Source: an uncultured Roseburia sp. | Lineage (GTDB): Bacteria; Bacillota; Clostridia; Lachnospirales; Lachnospiraceae | Assembly: GCA_947246475.1 (NCBI GenBank) | Contig: CAMXSH010000007.1 | Location: 1-64,000 of the forward strand | Direction: 5' to 3' | DNA: 64,000 nt | Part shown: positions 2,509 through 23,424 of the stretch, one piece after another | How positions within the stretch are numbered: the stretch's first letter is position 1 | Layout: each line of letters starts with the position of its first letter | The notes under the pieces: model-generated | Databases searched by the model: none | What the model saw: the letters and a program-made list of their open reading frames with translations, nothing else | Told to the model about the DNA's origin: nothing | Program-made: the position numbers and the translations under genes

Positions 2509-3655
2509 GAATATGTTCCTTGACTGCCAGGCTGACGACATCCGCCACACGGGGATCAAAAGCTTCTGGCATAATGTTGTCTTCGCTTAGTTCATTTTCA
2601 GGAACCAGGGATGCGATGGCAAGCGCGGCAGCCAGTTTCATCTCTTCTGTGATCTGGGAAGCATGTCCTTCCAGGGCGCCTCTGAATATACCTGGAAAGG
2701 CAACCACATTGTTGACCTGGTTTGGGAAATCCGATCTGCCGGTTCCTACCACTTTTGCGCCGGCCTTTTTAGCGAGATCTGGCATGATCTCCGGAACCGG
2801 ATTTGCCATAGCGAAGAGGATAGCGTCCTGGTTCATAGTGGATACCATCTCCGGTGTGACGATATTGGGAGCAGAAACACCCACAAATATATCTGTACCG
2901 ACGAAGGCATCTGCCAGGGTACCGGATTTTCCTTCCAGATTGGTAATTTCCATCATTTCCTTCTGCATCCAGTTCAGATCCGGTGTCTGCTTATTTAGGA
3001 TCCCGGATCTGTCACACAGCGTTATGTGGGGGAAACCGTATGTTAAAAGCAGCCGGCTGATGGCGATACCAGCGGATCCGGCGCCATTTACGACGATCTT
3101 ACAGTTTTCTTTTTTCTTCCCTGTTACTTTCAGGGCATTGATGATACCGGCAAGAACGACGATGGCAGTTCCATGCTGGTCATCATGAAAGACTGGGATA
3201 TCCAGCAGCTCCTTAAGCCGGTTTTCAATTTCAAAACATCGGGGAGCTGATATATCTTCCAGATTGATCCCGCCAAATGCTGGGGCAATATTTACAACGG
3301 TTTTTATGATCTCATCGGTATCCTGGGTGTCCAGACAGATCGGGAAAGCATTGACGCCGCCGAATTCCCGGAATAAAACAGCCTTTCCTTCCATCACGGG
3401 CATCGCCGCCTCTGCACCGATATTTCCCAGACCGAGAACAGCGCTTCCATCGGAGACGACAGCGATGGTATTTGCTTTAATCGTATAATGGTATGCTTCT
3501 TTTTTATCTTTGGCAATGACCTTGCAGGGTTCTGCAACTCCCGGCGTATAGGCGATGGCAAGGTCCTCTCTGGATTTGACCTGGCATTTTGGGGTGACAT
3601 CAAGTTTCCCGTTCCATTCTTTATGTAAGGCAAGTGCCTTTTCGTTATAACTCAT
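2486..3655 (-). CDS. NAD(P)-dependent malic enzyme (malate to pyruvate + CO2)
   Basis: This 389-residue protein is the short bacterial type of malic enzyme, with no phosphotransacetylase tail. Diagnostic stretches are AIAYTPGVAEPC (Tyr36 region, general acid), EGKAVLF (Lys91, catalytic base), the metal and substrate segment FHDDQHGTA (157-163) and the Rossmann motif GAGSAG (191-196). It oxidatively decarboxylates malate to pyruvate in the cytoplasm, producing NADH or NADPH for anaplerotic and redox balance. It is the first gene of a minus-strand operon with the radical SAM and DUF4364 genes and has its own promoter upstream. Cofactor preference cannot be read safely. Confidence 0.93.
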   Translation of the reverse strand: MSYNEKALALHKEWNGKLDVTPKCQVKSREDLAIAYTPGVAEPCKVIAKDKKEAYHYTIKANTIAVVSDGSAVLGLGNIGAEAAMPVMEGKAVLFREFGGVNAFPICLDTQDTDEIIKTVVNIAPAFGGINLEDISAPRCFEIENRLKELLDIPVFHDDQHGTAIVVLAGIINALKVTGKKKENCKIVVNGAGSAGIAISRLLLTYGFPHITLCDRSGILNKQTPDLNWMQKEMMEITNLEGKSGTLADAFVGTDIFVGVSAPNIVTPEMVSTMNQDAILFAMANPVPEIMPDLAKKAGAKVVGTGRSDFPNQVNNVVAFPGIFRGALEGHASQITEEMKLAAALAIASLVPENELSEDNIMPEAFDPRVADVVSLAVKEHIHDETALG

Positions 3656-3696
3656 AGTGATCCTCCGTTTTGTAAAACTCCAAATTTACCTCATTA

Positions 3697-3725
3697 ATTC
3701 TACCACTTTTAATAAGTAAAAACAA
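3697..3725 (-). promoter_or_regulatory. Sigma-A-type promoter of the malic enzyme operon
   Basis: On the minus strand TTGTTT (3725-3720) lies 17 nt from TAGAAT (3702-3697), about 40 nt upstream of the malic enzyme start. Confidence 0.55.
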
Positions 3726-3760
3726 TATATAAAAAATCTTCTTTACTTTCTGAAAACTAC

Positions 3761-3788
3761 TTGTGCTTTTTTGGATAAATGGTACAAT
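3761..3788 (+). promoter_or_regulatory. Candidate sigma-A-type promoter of the UDPGP gene
   Basis: TTGTGC (3761-3766) is separated by 16 nt from TACAAT (3783-3788), about 40 nt upstream of the start at 3829. Confidence 0.45.
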
Positions 3789-3828
3789 AGAGTATAAATT
3801 AGAAAATTTTGAGAGGAAGGTTTGTCAG

Positions 3829-5055
3829 ATGACGTTAGAACAAGCAAAAAAGAAGCTTTCTGCTGTCGGTCAAGAACATTTGCTTCGTTATTGGGATGAA
3901 TTGGATGAAGAACAGAGGTCTTATCTGCTGGAACAGATTGAAGAACTGGATACGGATCTCCTGCAGCTGGTTCAGGACGAGTCTGGAGAGACGCCAAGAG
4001 GAAAACTGGAGCCTCTGGGTGCATTGACGATCGATGAAATACAGAAAAACAGGCATAGGTATGAGAGCGTCGGGATCCAGACCTTAAAAGAGCGCCGTGT
4101 GGGTGCAGTGCTTCTGGCAGGCGGCCAGGGAACAAGGCTGGGACTGGATAAGCCAAAAGGGATGTTGAATGTAGGGGTGGAGAGGGAACTATATCTTTTC
4201 GGACAGTTGATCCAAAATATGCTGCATGTGGTGGACAAAACGGGCAAATGGATTCCGCTGTTTATTATGACCAGTGAAAAAAATCATAAAGATACAGTTG
4301 ATTTTTTTGAGGAAAAAGGTTATTTTGGATATGAGAGAAAGTATGTTTATTTCTTTGTACAGAAGATGGCACCATCCGTAGGATATGATGGTAAAATCTT
4401 TATGGAAGAAAAGTATAAGATCTCATCTTCGCCAAACGGTAATGGCGGCTGGTTTATTTCCCTTGAAAAAGCCGGTCTTCTGGACAAGATTTCAGAGATG
4501 GGAGTAGAGTGGCTCAATGTATTTTCTGTGGATAATGTTCTCCAGAAGATTGCGGATCCGGTATTTGTCGGCGCTGTGATCGAGAATGGATGTGTCTGTG
4601 GCTCTAAGGTTGTGGCAAAGGCGGATCCGAATGAAAGAGTTGGTGTGCTGTGTCTGGAGGATGGGAAGCCTTCCATCGTGGAATATTATGAGATGACAGA
4701 TGAGATGATCCATTCGCGGGACGAAGAAGGAAAACTTCTTTATAATTACGGCGTGATTCTGAATTACCTTTTTAATGTAGAGGTTCTCACAAGGATTATG
4801 AATCAAAATCTTCCTAACCATATAGTGGAGAAAAAAATCCCTTATATTAATGACAATGCGGAATATGTAAAACCAGAGGAACCAAATGGATACAAATTCG
4901 AGACACTGGTATTGGATATGATACATATGATGGATAACTGCCTGTCTTTTGAAGTAATAAGAGACAGAGAATTTGCGCCGATTAAAAACGCTACGGGTGT
5001 GGACTCCCTGGAAAGTGCAAGAGAACTTATGAAGAAAAATGGAATCGAATTTTGA
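3829..5055 (+). CDS. UDPGP-type nucleotidyltransferase (UDP-sugar / UDP-N-acetylhexosamine pyrophosphorylase-like)
   Basis: This 408-residue protein has the signature of eukaryote-like UDP-sugar pyrophosphorylases, LLAGGQGTRLG followed by KPKG (residues 95-111), which binds the nucleotide. Later segments (NVFSVDNVLQKIADP, NEYV-type NDNAEYVKPEEPNGYKFE) also fit the UDPGP type 1 family. It would make UDP-GlcNAc/GalNAc or UDP-glucose from sugar-1-phosphate and UTP in the cytoplasm; the exact sugar is not determinable. ATG 3829 is chosen over an upstream in-frame start at 3763 because AGGAAGG ends 8 nt before it and the upstream codons run through the promoter. The last 11 codons are partly duplicated downstream (see repeat at 5021-5126). 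Confidence 0.88.
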   Translation: MTLEQAKKKLSAVGQEHLLRYWDELDEEQRSYLLEQIEELDTDLLQLVQDESGETPRGKLEPLGALTIDEIQKNRHRYESVGIQTLKERRVGAVLLAGGQGTRLGLDKPKGMLNVGVERELYLFGQLIQNMLHVVDKTGKWIPLFIMTSEKNHKDTVDFFEEKGYFGYERKYVYFFVQKMAPSVGYDGKIFMEEKYKISSSPNGNGGWFISLEKAGLLDKISEMGVEWLNVFSVDNVLQKIADPVFVGAVIENGCVCGSKVVAKADPNERVGVLCLEDGKPSIVEYYEMTDEMIHSRDEEGKLLYNYGVILNYLFNVEVLTRIMNQNLPNHIVEKKIPYINDNAEYVKPEEPNGYKFETLVLDMIHMMDNCLSFEVIRDREFAPIKNATGVDSLESARELMKKNGIEF

Positions 5056-5126
5056 GACAGATCCCCTGTCCAAGACAGGCGGTGAAAAATGAGAGAGCTT
5101 ATGAAGAAAAAATGGAATCGAATTTT
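5021..5126 (+). repeat. Partial tandem duplication of the UDPGP gene 3' end (72-bp offset)
   Basis: The 33 bases at 5021-5053, which encode the last codons of the UDPGP protein (ELMKKNGIEF), recur nearly unchanged at 5093-5126 with one substitution and one extra A. The spacing is 72 bp, so a 72-bp unit was probably duplicated and the second copy has decayed. The second copy lies in a 23-codon frame (5089-5160) of no known function, MRELMKKKWNRI and onwards. Confidence 0.85.
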
Positions 5127-5194
5127 AACTGCCGAAACATTCGGGACGGATTTTGTTTGAGAATCGTGTTTGGCTTTCAGAAAGGACAGAAAGA

Positions 5195-6772
5195 ATGGAT
5201 TTAGCAAAATTATCATTGAAAGAACTTCGTGAAATGGCGAAGGAAAAAGGGTTGTCCGGCGTGTCTGGTCTGCGGAAAGGAGATCTTGTGCATGAACTGG
5301 AAAAACTTACACGATCCGAAGCACGAAGGGAAGCGCAGCCAGAAGAGTACCCAAAGAGAGAAAGGACCGTTAAAAAATCTGAAGGAAATGTGGTTCAGAC
5401 GACAGAAAAGGAAGAAATTAAAAAGCAGGCATATACATATGTTCCCAATCATGGGGACAGGGGACATGCCAGAAATGGCAATGCTGTCGTACACCGCAGC
5501 GAGAACCGGCAGGATAGTCACATTGAGCAGCAGGAGAGCCAGCCGCTTCGTACTATTGAGGATGTAGTGAAGGCGGGACTGATCACGATTGCCAAGGATC
5601 GTCAGGTGTCAGATGTACATCCCAGGGAGATTAAAGAGCTGGACAGTGGTATCACTAAAAGGGGGATTCTGGAGATTATGCCAGAGGGATATGGTTTTAT
5701 CCGCTGTGATAATTTCCTTCCCGGAGAAAATGACGTCTATGTTTCACCGGCATTTCTCAGACGCTTTGGTCTTCGTACCGGAGATATCGTAGAGGGAAAT
5801 ATCCGGGTCAGGACACAGAATGAAAAGTTCAGCGCGCTTCTTTATATGAAGAGCGTCAATGGGCGTCCCATCACGTATCTTGCCCGCAGGCATAAATTTG
5901 AAGACCTGACACCGATCTTTCCTAATGAGAGGATACATTTGGAGACGCCTGGTTCCGGCGTATCCATGAGGATGCTGGATTTGATCGCGCCGATTGGAAA
6001 AGGTCAGAGAGGGATGATCGTATCCCAGCCGAAAACCGGTAAAACCACTCTGTTAAAACAGGTGGCGAGTGCCATTACAAGAAATTATCCGAAGATGCAT
6101 CTTTTGATCCTGCTTATCGACGAGCGTCCGGAGGAGGTTACAGATATCAAAGAATCCATCGAGGGAGAACGGGTTGAGGTGATCTATTCTACCTTTGATG
6201 AACTTCCGGAAAATCATAAACGGGTTTCGGAAATGGTGATTGAGAGAGCCAAACGTCTCGTGGAGGGTGGTGATGATGTGGTGATCCTTCTTGACAGTAT
6301 CACCCGTCTTGCCAGGGCGTACAACCTCACTGTCACTCCCAGCGGGCGGACACTTTCCGGAGGTCTTGATCCGGCGGCCCTGCATATGCCAAAGCGTTTC
6401 TTTGGTGCGGCAAGGAATATGAGGGAGGGCGGAAGCCTTACGATTCTTGCTACGGCGCTGGTAGATACCGGAAGCAGGATGGATGATGTGGTATTTGAAG
6501 AATTTAAGGGAACCGGCAATATGGAACTGGTTCTTGACCGCCACTTGTCGGAAAAACGTGTATTTCCGGCGATCGACATACAGAAGTCAAGTACCAGGCG
6601 GGAAGATCTTCTGCTGAGCCAGAGAGAGCTGGAAGCAGTGTTCCTTATGCGCAAGGCACTGGGATCAAATTCCAATACGGAAAACAATCTGGAGCAGATC
6701 ATCAACCTGTTCCGCAAAACCAAAAATAACGAAGAATTTATCGAAACAATAAAAAAAATCAAGCTCCATTAA
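5195..6772 (+). CDS. rho: Transcription termination factor Rho
   Basis: This 525-residue protein is a full Rho: an N-terminal helix-turn-helix-like Rho_N domain (1-40), a charged low-complexity insert (about 40-115) common in Clostridia, a cold-shock-type RNA-binding domain (about 155-220, with GYGFIR and DVYVSP), and an F1-ATPase-like motor with Walker A PKTGKTT (residues 279-285), then [13 protein letters not shown] and [13 protein letters not shown]. It forms a hexamer that unwinds RNA to end transcription. ATG 5195 has AAAGGA at 8 nt; the frame extends upstream to 5153 but without an RBS. Its last 15 codons are part of a 3.5-copy tandem repeat running into the intergenic region. Confidence 0.97.
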
Positions 6773-20051: not shown

Positions 20052-22622
20052 ATGAAAGGGCCAAAGCATGTCAGTATCGCCCTGCTTGCCCATGTGGATG
20101 CAGGAAAGACCACCTTATCCGAGGCGATGCTTTATGCCTGCGGCGCGATACGAAAAGCTGGCCGGGTAGATCATCAGGACACCTTTCTGGATATGAATAT
20201 CCATGAGAGGGAGAGGGGCATCACGATCTTTTCCAAACAGGCGAGGATGGCCTGGGGAGATACAGAAATCACCCTTTTGGATACGCCGGGGCATGTGGAC
20301 TTTTCCGCAGAGATGGAGAGGACACTACAGGTACTGGATTATGCGGTGCTGGTAGTCAGTGGGACGGATGGTGTCCAGGGGCACACAGAGACGCTGTGGA
20401 AACTATTGGAGCATTATCAGATCCCTGTTTTTTTATTTGTAAATAAGATGGATCTTCCAGGAACAGACAGGCAGCAGCTGATGGATGAGCTGAAGTTAAA
20501 GCTTTCCTCCGGCTGTGTTGATTTTACAGATACGGGATCCGGAGAATTTATGGAAGAAACTGCCCTGTGTGATGAGGCACTTCTGGAGAAATATCTGGAT
20601 CAAGGTGCACTGGATCTCCCAGAAGATCTGCGTTCCCTGATCGCCCAGAGGAAGCTTTTTCCCTGCTGTTTTGGATCGGCGCTGCGGCTGGAGGGAACGG
20701 AAGAACTGCTGGATACAATCCATGAATACTCTACATATGTAGAAAGAAAAAAGGAGTTTGCTGCCAGGGTTTTTAAGGTATCCAGGGATGCCCAGGGCAG
20801 CCGGCTCACCCACTTAAAGATCACAGGGGGAAAGCTCCAGGTGAAAGAGGTGCTGGGAGAGGGGGAGAAAGTAAACCAGATCCGGCTCTATTCTGGAGAA
20901 AAGTACGAGACCGCTGATGAAGTAGGCGCCGGAGAGATCTGTGCGGTGACGGGGTTGAACCATACGTATCCAGGTCAGGGACTTGGAACTGAACTGGATC
21001 TTGCGGGGGAACAATTAGAACCGGTTCTTCGTTATTCCATCTTGTTTCCAGAGGGTACAGATATGACGATGGCGGCAGGAAAACTCCGTCAGCTGGAGGA
21101 GGAAGATCCAAAACTTCATCTTTCCTGGGACGAGAAACAGCACCAGATGTATATTCAGCCCATGGGGGAGGTGCAGCTGGAAATCCTAAAAGAAATTCTG
21201 GCAGAACGTTTTGGGATGGAGGCAGAGTTCGGAGAGGGAAATATTCTTTATAAGGAGACCATACAGAACGTAGTGGAGGGAGTGGGACATTTTGAGCCAC
21301 TACGTCATTATGCTGAAGTGCATCTTCTGATGGAACCACTGCCGCCGGGAAGTGGAATTGTGGTCGGATCGGACTGCAGCGAAGACAAGCTGGATCTGAA
21401 CTGGCAGCGGCTGGTGATGACCCATCTGAAAGAAAAAGAATTTGCTGGGGTACTGACCGGATCCCCTATCACGGATATCAGGATTACGCTGGCGGCAGGC
21501 CGTGCCCATCTCAAGCATACAGAGGGCGGGGATTTCCGGCAGGCGACGTACCGGGCTGTGCGTCAGGGATTGATGCAGGCCAAGAGTGTTCTTTTGGAGC
21601 CCTGCTATGAGTTCCGTTTGGAGCTGCCGACAGAAAATGTTGGACGTGCCATGACGGATATCAAGCGGATGAGCGGTGAGTTTGAGGTGCTGCCGGAGCA
21701 GGCGGGCATGTCGGTGCTGACAGGAATCTGTCCGGTGGCTGCCATGAAGGATTACCCGGTAGAATTTGCTTCGTATACAAAAGGGCGGGGGCATATGAGC
21801 TGCATGCCAGCCGGTTATCAACCCTGTCACAATGAGATGGAAGTCAGGGAGAAGATCGGCTACGATGCGGAGGCAGATGTGGAAAACACCCCGGATTCCG
21901 TGTTCTGCGCCCATGGTTCCGGCTATGTGGTCAGATGGAATGAAGTGCCAGAGCATATGCATCTGGAGAGCGTACTAACATCTGCCAGGAGGCGTGGCGC
22001 TGAAAACCAGCGGAGGGATCCGGCGAGGGGGACAGAGGGAAACCGTTCTGTGGATTCCAGGGATTTTTATGCCGAGGAAAAAGAACTCCAGGCGATCTTC
22101 GAGAGAACCTACGGCGCGGTGAAACCTAAGGTGCCAGAAGCCGGATCTAAAGTGATCCGGGCAAAGGAAGAGAAACAGAAGGTACAGATCCGGGAAAGAA
22201 AGCCAGTGGAAGAGTATGTGCTGGTGGACGGTTATAATATTATTTTCGCCTGGGAAGACCTAAAAGAGCTCTCCCGTGTCAGCATGGATGCCGCGAGGAT
22301 GAAACTGATGGATATCATGTGCAATTATCAGGGATATACTGGCTGTCATCTGATCCTTGTCTTTGATGCTTATAAGGTGAAAGGAAACCCCGGCAGCGTG
22401 GAGCAGTTTCATAATATCAGTATCGTATACACCAGGGAAGCAGAAACTGCGGATATGTATATTGAAAAGACAACGAAGCGCATCGCCAGGAAACACCGGG
22501 TGCGGGTGGCGACCTCCGACGGCATGGAACAGATGATCATTCTGGGACATGGCGCAACGAGAATGTCTGCTTCCGCGTTCAGGGAAGAGGTTCAGAGGGT
22601 AAGCTCCTTCCTGGCTAAATGA
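20052..22622 (+). CDS. Tet(M)-like ribosome-associated GTPase fused to a Rae1/YacP-type NYN endoribonuclease domain
   Basis: This 856-residue protein starts as a translational GTPase of the EF-G/Tet(M) family: G1 AHVDAGKTT (13-21), G3 DTPGHVDF (77-84), G4 NKMD (131-134), then domains II-V to about residue 640. From about 720 to the end it carries a YacP-like NYN nuclease domain (DGYN at 726-729, then QGYTGCHLILVFDAYKVKG, ETADMYIEKTT, VATSDGMEQ) that resembles B. subtilis Rae1, the ribosomal A-site endonuclease. A basic linker (650-715) joins them. The domain IV loop which in Tet(M) reads about YSPVS is here short (HTEGGDF, 489-495), so it may not give tetracycline resistance. No frameshift or stop separates the parts. 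An RBS (GGGAAGGGGAG) precedes the ATG. Confidence 0.9.
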   Translation: MKGPKHVSIALLAHVDAGKTTLSEAMLYACGAIRKAGRVDHQDTFLDMNIHERERGITIFSKQARMAWGDTEITLLDTPGHVDFSAEMERTLQVLDYAVLVVSGTDGVQGHTETLWKLLEHYQIPVFLFVNKMDLPGTDRQQLMDELKLKLSSGCVDFTDTGSGEFMEETALCDEALLEKYLDQGALDLPEDLRSLIAQRKLFPCCFGSALRLEGTEELLDTIHEYSTYVERKKEFAARVFKVSRDAQGSRLTHLKITGGKLQVKEVLGEGEKVNQIRLYSGEKYETADEVGAGEICAVTGLNHTYPGQGLGTELDLAGEQLEPVLRYSILFPEGTDMTMAAGKLRQLEEEDPKLHLSWDEKQHQMYIQPMGEVQLEILKEILAERFGMEAEFGEGNILYKETIQNVVEGVGHFEPLRHYAEVHLLMEPLPPGSGIVVGSDCSEDKLDLNWQRLVMTHLKEKEFAGVLTGSPITDIRITLAAGRAHLKHTEGGDFRQATYRAVRQGLMQAKSVLLEPCYEFRLELPTENVGRAMTDIKRMSGEFEVLPEQAGMSVLTGICPVAAMKDYPVEFASYTKGRGHMSCMPAGYQPCHNEMEVREKIGYDAEADVENTPDSVFCAHGSGYVVRWNEVPEHMHLESVLTSARRRGAENQRRDPARGTEGNRSVDSRDFYAEEKELQAIFERTYGAVKPKVPEAGSKVIRAKEEKQKVQIRERKPVEEYVLVDGYNIIFAWEDLKELSRVSMDAARMKLMDIMCNYQGYTGCHLILVFDAYKVKGNPGSVEQFHNISIVYTREAETADMYIEKTTKRIARKHRVRVATSDGMEQMIILGHGATRMSASAFREEVQRVSSFLAK

Positions 22623-22641: not shown

Positions 22642-23424
22642 ATGATTGAAAGTATGAACAACACCCAGGTCAAACGAATCGGAAAACTGAAGAAAAGTTC
22701 CCGGTTCCGCAGGCAGGAAAAAGCCTTTATAGCGGAAGGATTCAAAATGGCGGCGGAAGGACTGGTCCACGGGCTGGTACAGACTATGTATGTGGCGGAG
22801 TCTGCGGGAGAAGAATATTTTTCAAAGTTATCCCATACAATAGGAAAAGAGAATATAGAATGGGTGTCTGACGCTGTTTTCCGGCAGTTATCTGACACTA
22901 CTGCCCCTCAGGGAGTTCTTGCCGTGATCCGTATGCCAGAATATGAACGGGAAAAAATTCTGTCAGGGGATGCGGCGGCGCTGGTATGTCTGGAGGATAT
23001 TCAGGATCCGGGAAATCTGGGAACTATTATGAGAACAGCAGAGGGAGCCGGAATGAGCGGGGTGGTACTGTCCAAGGGATGTGTAGACCTGTTTAATCCG
23101 AAAGTGGTACGCTCAACGATGGGTGCGCTGTACCGGATGCCCTATTATATAACAGAGGATATGACTTCAGAAGTAGAATTGCTGAGGCGCCAGGGATTTC
23201 AGATAGCAGCAGCGAGACTGGATGCAGAAGTGGACTATACCCACGCCGATTACTGTGGCAAAACTGGCTTATTGATCGGAAATGAGGCCAGGGGGCTCTG
23301 TTCAGAGACTGCGGAGAAAGCGAATGTGGGGGTGAAGATACCTATGGAGGGACATCTGGAATCTTTGAATGCTGCAGTTTCGGCCGCCCTTTTAATGTAT
23401 GAGGTCCGCCGGCAAAGGAGATAG
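22642..23424 (+). CDS. TrmH/SpoU family RNA 2'-O-methyltransferase
   Basis: This 260-residue protein has an N-terminal substrate-binding domain (SMNNTQVKRIGKLKKSSRFRRQEKAFIAEG, residues 4-33) and a C-terminal SPOUT knot with the three motifs LEDIQDPGNLGTIMRTAEG, LLIGNEARGL and IPMEGHLESLNAAVSAA. It should methylate a ribose in 23S rRNA or tRNA; the site is unknown. It begins 20 nt after the GTPase-nuclease fusion gene, so two ribosome-directed proteins are probably cotranscribed. Confidence 0.93.
   Translation: MIESMNNTQVKRIGKLKKSSRFRRQEKAFIAEGFKMAAEGLVHGLVQTMYVAESAGEEYFSKLSHTIGKENIEWVSDAVFRQLSDTTAPQGVLAVIRMPEYEREKILSGDAAALVCLEDIQDPGNLGTIMRTAEGAGMSGVVLSKGCVDLFNPKVVRSTMGALYRMPYYITEDMTSEVELLRRQGFQIAAARLDAEVDYTHADYCGKTGLLIGNEARGLCSETAEKANVGVKIPMEGHLESLNAAVSAALLMYEVRRQRR

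Follow-up and report, generated by a model that had tools for sequence, protein, structure and literature searches.

The window, by which we mean the whole 64,000-nucleotide stretch of DNA analysed here, carries a gene in which a translational GTPase is joined to a nuclease domain of the NYN type, with a methyltransferase gene directly downstream. The gap upstream of the fused gene is 94 nt, and an Rfam scan of the window gave no match. The features are as follows.

20052..22622, + strand: fused GTPase-NYN gene, 856 codons plus stop
20064..20729, + strand: GTP-binding domain (residues 5-226, Pfam), with the AHVDAGKT P-loop, DTPGH switch II and NKMD intact
21240..21584, + strand: domain IV (residues 397-511), bearing two tip loops peculiar to the family
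residues 410-423 and 483-496, + strand: the domain IV tip loops, GVGHFEPLRHYAEV and GRAHLKHTEGGDFR respectively, placed by alignment
21588..21839, + strand: domain V / EFG_C (residues 513-596, Pfam)
21828..21974, + strand: family-specific C-terminal extension (about residues 593-641), CHN...GYDAEAD...SVFCAHGSG
21975..22199, + strand: linker (about residues 642-716), mostly of low model confidence, with a helix near ELQAIFERT
22218..22604, + strand: NYN_YacP (Rae1-type) domain (residues 723-851), with D726, N729, D772, D801 and D823 invariant
22642..23424, + strand: SpoU/TrmH-type methyltransferase, an RlmB-like paralogue, 19 nt downstream of the fused gene

The first-pass annotation of this DNA had described one intact 856-residue frame joining an EF-G/Tet-type GTPase to a YacP-like NYN domain, and both the open reading frame and Pfam agree with it. 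The frame at 20052-22622 (+) starts with ATG and encodes 856 aa without internal stops. Pfam places GTP_EFTU at residues 5-226 (3e-53), EF-G_D2 at 236-304, EFG_III at 323-394, EFG_IV at 397-511 and EFG_C at 513-596, in the order expected of an EF-G/Tet-type protein, which gives this part the extent 5-596; NYN_YacP (PF05991) follows in the same frame at 723-851 (E = 8e-48, 163 bits against a curated cut-off of 24.6). All the motifs named earlier are present, namely G1, G3 and G4 (HVDAGKT, DTPGH and NKMD) in the GTPase, and DGYN (726-729), FDAYKVKG (771-778) and VATSD (819-823) in the NYN domain. The same order of GTPase and then NYN was found in 56 distinct full-length frames, the window's among them, and a completed Agathobacter rectalis plasmid also carries the fused gene, a copy not counted among the 56, since its match is incomplete at the N terminus. 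Therefore, the fusion is no assembly artefact, and its existence as a single intact frame is confirmed. On the 252-kb A. rectalis plasmid (L190) the fused copy lies at 2816-6281, divergent from a CopG/BrnT toxin-antitoxin pair.

An AlphaFold model built from a 27-row alignment has a mean pLDDT of 86 and a pTM of 0.68, and is weak at residues 655-674, 691-716 and 825-832, the last stretch lying within the NYN domain. A Foldseek search against the PDB gave proteins of the EF-G or EF-2 type as its best 50 matches. With a linker pLDDT below 50 and a pTM of 0.68, the model does not fix the position of the NYN domain relative to the GTPase.

Fused and unfused homologues were compared in the window's family and class, as the first-pass annotation had suggested; the fusion proved to be widespread, and unfused halves also occur. 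Within the family, which its named relatives suggest to be Lachnospiraceae, NYN_YacP was detected in 108 of 120 genomes, and the open frame around it reached at least 750 aa in 95 of these 108 and was shorter in 13, some of them at contig ends; the figure of 95 is a count of frame lengths, the GTPase content of the frames being confirmed on the fetched loci only. In a sample of 245 genomes from the class, NYN was present in 161 and the family GTPase, at 600 bits or more, in 102. The GTPase frame was at least 750 aa long in 87 class genomes, all 87 of which had an NYN match: at the same place in 81, on another contig in one (G342), and in the remaining five with the NYN row not among the matches listed, so that GTPase and NYN stand together in at least 81 of the 161 NYN-bearing class genomes. 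A phylum-wide draw of 149 genomes contained NYN in 86, ten times within frames of at least 850 aa, seven of these outside the class. Taken together, the family, class and phylum counts show that YacP commonly occurs as the fusion in this region of the Bacillota. Since many rows share ancestry, these counts and the Fisher values given below are not independent observations.

In the window's own genome, whose assembly is 93 % complete, the fused NYN is the sole NYN_YacP match. The same genome has one member of this GTPase family, the single further match at E up to 1e-60 scoring 274 bits compared with 1063. Three genomes of one genus of the class (G255, G320 and G360) have two NYN_YacP matches each, one of them fused, and the second may be a free copy. 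In another genome (G170, contig C2, about 126183-128758) the GTPase and NYN matches are adjacent in separate frames, which is probably a broken fusion. As to the origin of the fusion, the GTPase and NYN trees each need three changes, and both would still allow a single origin; the NYN tree is weak, with 98 of 101 rows, long branches (L050, L061, L063, L071 and L217) and a bootstrap that had not settled.

The GTPase half was compared with tetracycline protection proteins and EF-G by phylogenetic analysis. In a tree of 85 rows, the 63 family rows (49 fused and 14 unfused) stand apart from 6 Tet, 2 Tet-like and 14 EF-G rows, and the branch separating them has a length of 1.0 and an SH-aLRT of 99. 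The tree contains 85 of 92 rows, seven near-identical fused rows being omitted; the 14 EF-G rows were hand-picked from several dozen, and truncated or incomplete unfused rows (L065, L069, L072, L073, L075, L144 and L219) were excluded from the tree and the loop counts. The unfused members share about 42-57 % identity with the window and come from Bifidobacterium, Collinsella, Neobacillus, Intestinibacter, Paenibacillus cellulosilyticus and others, as well as from several Clostridia genomes and from plasmids of Ligilactobacillus salivarius. The latter were seen on plasmids of many L. salivarius strains; on one of them (L189) the unfused member, at 3998-5917, lies a few genes from rpsN, and its resistance label is doubtful. 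Meanwhile, two Tet-like GTPases, from Paenibacillus jilunlii (L074) and from genome G068 (L145), have the intermediate loops HHVWHTHPLDF and HHLEHTHPLDF, respectively; they pair together beside Tet in the tree and perhaps belong to a further uncharacterised group.

The P-loop, DTPGH and NKxD are intact in all 56 full-length fused GTPases. Several residues of domain IV are nearly invariant within the family: L417, H419 and E422 are kept in 56/56 fused and 14/14 unfused members and, by the commonest letters shown, in no Tet, Tet-like or EF-G row. Likewise, K488 is found in 55/56 fused and 12/14 unfused members, at a column that holds P in 6/6 Tet rows, while H489 and T490 (56/56 fused, 14/14 unfused) are common to the two Tet-like rows and absent from Tet and EF-G. 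The histidine at the tip of domain IV of EF-G has a role in translocation; at its column, the family has H486 in 55/56 fused and 13/14 unfused members, shared with 14/14 EF-G and 2/2 Tet-like rows and with 0/6 Tet rows. After domain V, fused and unfused members have a C-terminal extension, marked by an S-(V/I)-(F/S)-C pattern that was sought anywhere in the protein and found in 56/56 fused and 14/14 unfused members; all Tet (6), Tet-like (2) and EF-G (14) rows stop short of this extension. Judged from sequence, the GTPase is a family of its own, distinct from Tet and EF-G, with fused and unfused members.

Generally, the window protein resembles Tet(M) and Tet(O) in domain order, in the lengths of its domain IV loops and in the DFR that follows the loop. 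It differs in having K-H-T for P-V-S, the extra C-terminal extension and the NYN domain, and its identity to Tet(36), TetB(P) and Tet(O) is about 32 %. With EF-G it shares the fold, the GTPase motifs and the tip histidine of domain IV (H486); however, it lacks the SGGRGQYGH and DVDSSEMAF loops, is about 30 % identical, and reaches 292 bits with the NCBIfam EF-G model TIGR00484 against a cut-off of 659. In place of the SPVS and PPNPFW types of the Tet domain IV loops, the window has LKHT and EPLRHY. The first-pass annotation had called the domain IV loop at 489-495 short and lacking in Tet residues. The replacement of residues is borne out, the window having GRAHLKHTEGGDFR where Tet(O)/Tet(M) have GLYYSPVSTPADFR; the shortness is rejected, because the two are of equal length in the alignment.

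These data bear on whether the protein confers Tet(M)-type protection against tetracycline or other A-site drugs, with the RNase adding to resistance. Such a function has been suggested in print for fusions of this kind by Atkinson 2015 (PMC4342817), and some members are labelled TetM/TetW family in public annotation; among solved structures, Tet(O) is the best relative by profile search (2e-123), with EF-G nearly level (2e-121). However, we consider a drug-protection function very improbable, given the K of 55/56 fused members where 6/6 Tet rows have P at column 488, the 403 bits scored with NCBIfam tet_protect against a cut-off of 775, the position of the family branch away from Tet, and the near-universal presence of the gene in the window's family. 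In addition, the resistance predictors of PLSDB flag six classical tet genes and none of the three annotated family members examined. Loop residues, the score below the curated cut-off, tree and distribution thus lead us to reject a simple Tet-type resistance gene as the main reading, and the earlier remark that the loop argues against simple tetracycline protection holds.

The public label "TetM/TetW/TetO/TetS family tetracycline resistance ribosomal protection protein" is carried by the fused A. rectalis and the unfused L. salivarius members, and other family members are annotated "translation factor GTPase family protein". It would be wrong to infer resistance from the Tet-type label. As the gene is widespread, of a core type and partly labelled as tetracycline resistance, it could inflate resistance counts in gut metagenomes.

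Turning to the NYN half, a profile search of the PDB (E up to 0.01) returned YacP only, with a best E of 5e-42, in entries 5mq8 and 5mq9, which are titled YacP and which we take to be Bacillus subtilis Rae1/YacP. D726, D772, D801, D823 and N729, presumably the catalytic residues of the NYN active site, are kept in 72/72 fused and 29/29 other NYN rows, the 72 being drawn from 74 distinct fused frames, two of which were cut at the 3' end and left out. The first-pass annotation was therefore right in seeing a Rae1-type NYN domain with an intact active site, and the acidic residues whose conservation it had proposed to check show no loss. B. subtilis Rae1 is described as cutting mRNA in the A site (PMC12320835, PMC6613710).

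The window copy shares with B. subtilis Rae1 the NYN core and all the aspartates, and differs from it in being fused to a GTPase, in lying away from the place after rlmB and in being about 30 C-terminal residues short: it ends at model position 138. The C-terminal tail, up to model position 160, is present in 47/72 fused and 28/28 free copies, its absence from 25/72 fused and 0/28 free copies having a Fisher p of 7e-5, uncorrected for kinship. The free copies counted here are 28, because the 29th "free NYN" row (L012) is cut at the start of its contig, falls among fused rows in the tree and is probably a truncated fusion. In the alignment, residue R166 of B. subtilis Rae1 falls within the C-terminal tail. 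According to PMC6613710, the R166P change is a selected suppressor grouped with loss-of-function alleles. The loss of the tail and the position of R166 in it would fit another module having assumed part of the docking.

The gene neighbourhood also points to a change of place. At 23 of the 28 free-yacP loci that showed neighbours, the gene directly before yacP is of the rlmB/TrmH type, and in both of two free-yacP genomes examined yacP comes directly after rlmB; the sigma gene is next after yacP in one of them (G054), and in the other (G024) the roughly 0.9 kb beyond yacP showed no sigma gene. Among 11 fusion genomes in which a gene over the RlmB cut-off was located, the next gene is of the sigma-70 type in 10, with no yacP found between the two by tblastn; in the eleventh (G046), no sigma-70-type gene was found after rlmB. 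The sigma-70-type gene is presumably sigH, as in B. subtilis; sigma-70 domains were confirmed in the gene of the window's genome and in the genes at two free-yacP loci. Its start overlaps rlmB or lies within about 115 nt of it in 8 of the 11, including the window's genome, where it follows rlmB after about 15 nt. In two genomes (G340 and G144; L222 and L223), about 580-590 nt separate rlmB from the sigma gene, a gap roughly the size of yacP that has no 45-aa ORF on the coding strand and may be a decayed yacP or a promoter region. From these comparisons, the fused NYN looks like a relocated Rae1.

The first-pass annotation had also pointed to an rRNA/tRNA methyltransferase as the neighbour of the fused gene. 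A SpoU/TrmH-type gene is indeed present at 22642-23424, with 131 bits in the RlmB profile against a cut-off of 160, while the gene of the window's genome that passes the cut-off, with 243 bits, is on a different contig. Conservation of this neighbour is rejected, since no methyltransferase was found beside any of 54 other fused loci with neighbours, in a survey limited to ORFs of 120 aa or longer and to at most three per side, on flanks that for many loci were at most 1.5 kb and for some on one side only. Two loci, the fused L058 and the free L012, gave no neighbours. The gene at 22642-23424 also resembles NshR/TsnR methyltransferases, though less closely (62 of 425 bits).

The adjacency of free yacP to an rRNA-methyltransferase-type gene agrees with a reading in which the NYN acts on the ribosome to mature or degrade rRNA or tRNA and the GTPase is an assembly or hibernation factor, and an early proposal for NYN domains, cited in Atkinson 2015 (PMC4342817), goes in this direction. 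However, the closest characterised protein, Rae1, is described as an A-site mRNA nuclease (PMC12320835, PMC6613710), and we regard an rRNA or tRNA substrate as improbable.

Tet proteins that gained a YacP-like NYN domain in ten Clostridiales species are described in Atkinson 2015 (PMC4342817), with the suggestion of a resistance mechanism involving an RNase; the architecture is therefore not new. Our literature search found only this earlier report of the fusion, the main Rae1 papers being outside its reach. The architecture is the same in both studies. In the 2015 report the fusions are filed as Tet and read as possible resistance, whereas here the GTPase stands apart from Tet and is near-universal in the window's family, and the NYN is apparently a relocated Rae1. 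What our comparisons would add to the 2015 report is the wide spread, the relocation of Rae1, the distinct GTPase family, the invariant aspartates and the tail loss in fused copies.

The reading that we favour, with a probability of about 0.5, is that the protein is a ribosome-bound mRNA endonuclease, in which the genome's Rae1 (YacP) is tethered through a flexible linker to an EF-G-like GTPase of a separate family that docks before the nuclease cuts. The GTPase in its GTP form would bind the factor site and place domain IV in a vacant or blocked A site. GTP hydrolysis would then withdraw domain IV, and the tethered NYN could move into the A site so freed, or into the one of an adjacent collided ribosome, and cut the mRNA, giving a substrate for ribosome rescue. 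The model needs such a hand-over, since domain IV and the NYN cannot share one A site. The intact GTPase motifs and NYN active site, the domain IV tip peculiar to the family and the flexible linker would fit such a factor; ribosome binding, mRNA as the substrate and the order of events are what we infer here. The mechanism proposed in the first-pass annotation, in which the GTPase may deliver an A-site nuclease, is retained as the best one. If this delivery is true, many Clostridia rely on a single GTPase-nuclease for a task that other bacteria divide among a translation factor and a separate A-site nuclease, and the fusion by itself points to a partner of this little understood nuclease.

The two halves might instead have independent functions in translation, the GTPase with a ribosome task of its own and the NYN working like free Rae1, the fusion merely setting their ratio or expression. 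The GTPase is known unfused and without NYN, as in two Bifidobacterium genomes that have the GTPase and no NYN match, and the NYN is known unfused without the GTPase. Where they are not fused, the halves show no association above chance: in the class, NYN is present in 8/15 genomes with an unfused-looking GTPase frame and 66/143 without the GTPase (p = 0.79), or 7/13 (p = 0.77) when two probably broken or cut fusions (G170 and G250) are removed. Co-occurrence therefore fails as proof of partnership outside the fusion in the class; the missing association and the two Bifidobacterium genomes count against the delivery reading. An early pattern in the family (the GTPase in 0/12 NYN-less genomes and an unfused GTPase in 6/9 free-NYN genomes) was not upheld in the class. 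This, together with the NYN-less Bifidobacterium GTPase, makes a separate function of the GTPase probable. The linker, which spans 68-198 residues between the two profile matches in fused frames, is also variable, as independent functions would allow. Nevertheless, the fusion is kept in many families, at least 81/245 class genomes having the GTPase and the NYN at the same place, and tail loss is confined to fused copies in this sample; we therefore hold mere coexistence of two functions to be rather unlikely.

Returning to delivery of the nuclease by the GTPase, a more specific and tentative version is that the protein is a translational GTPase of a KHT-loop family that recognises ribosomes with an abnormal A site, performs an EF-G-like step through the domain IV histidine, and passes the A site to its own tethered Rae1. 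If true, one protein would both remodel a stalled ribosome and cut its mRNA.

In the linker, a motif resembling ELxxIFxRT (window residues about 675-690) recurs in 41/72 fused frames. This frequency led us to reject it as a universal docking element of the linker; in the frames that have it, it may form a docking helix.
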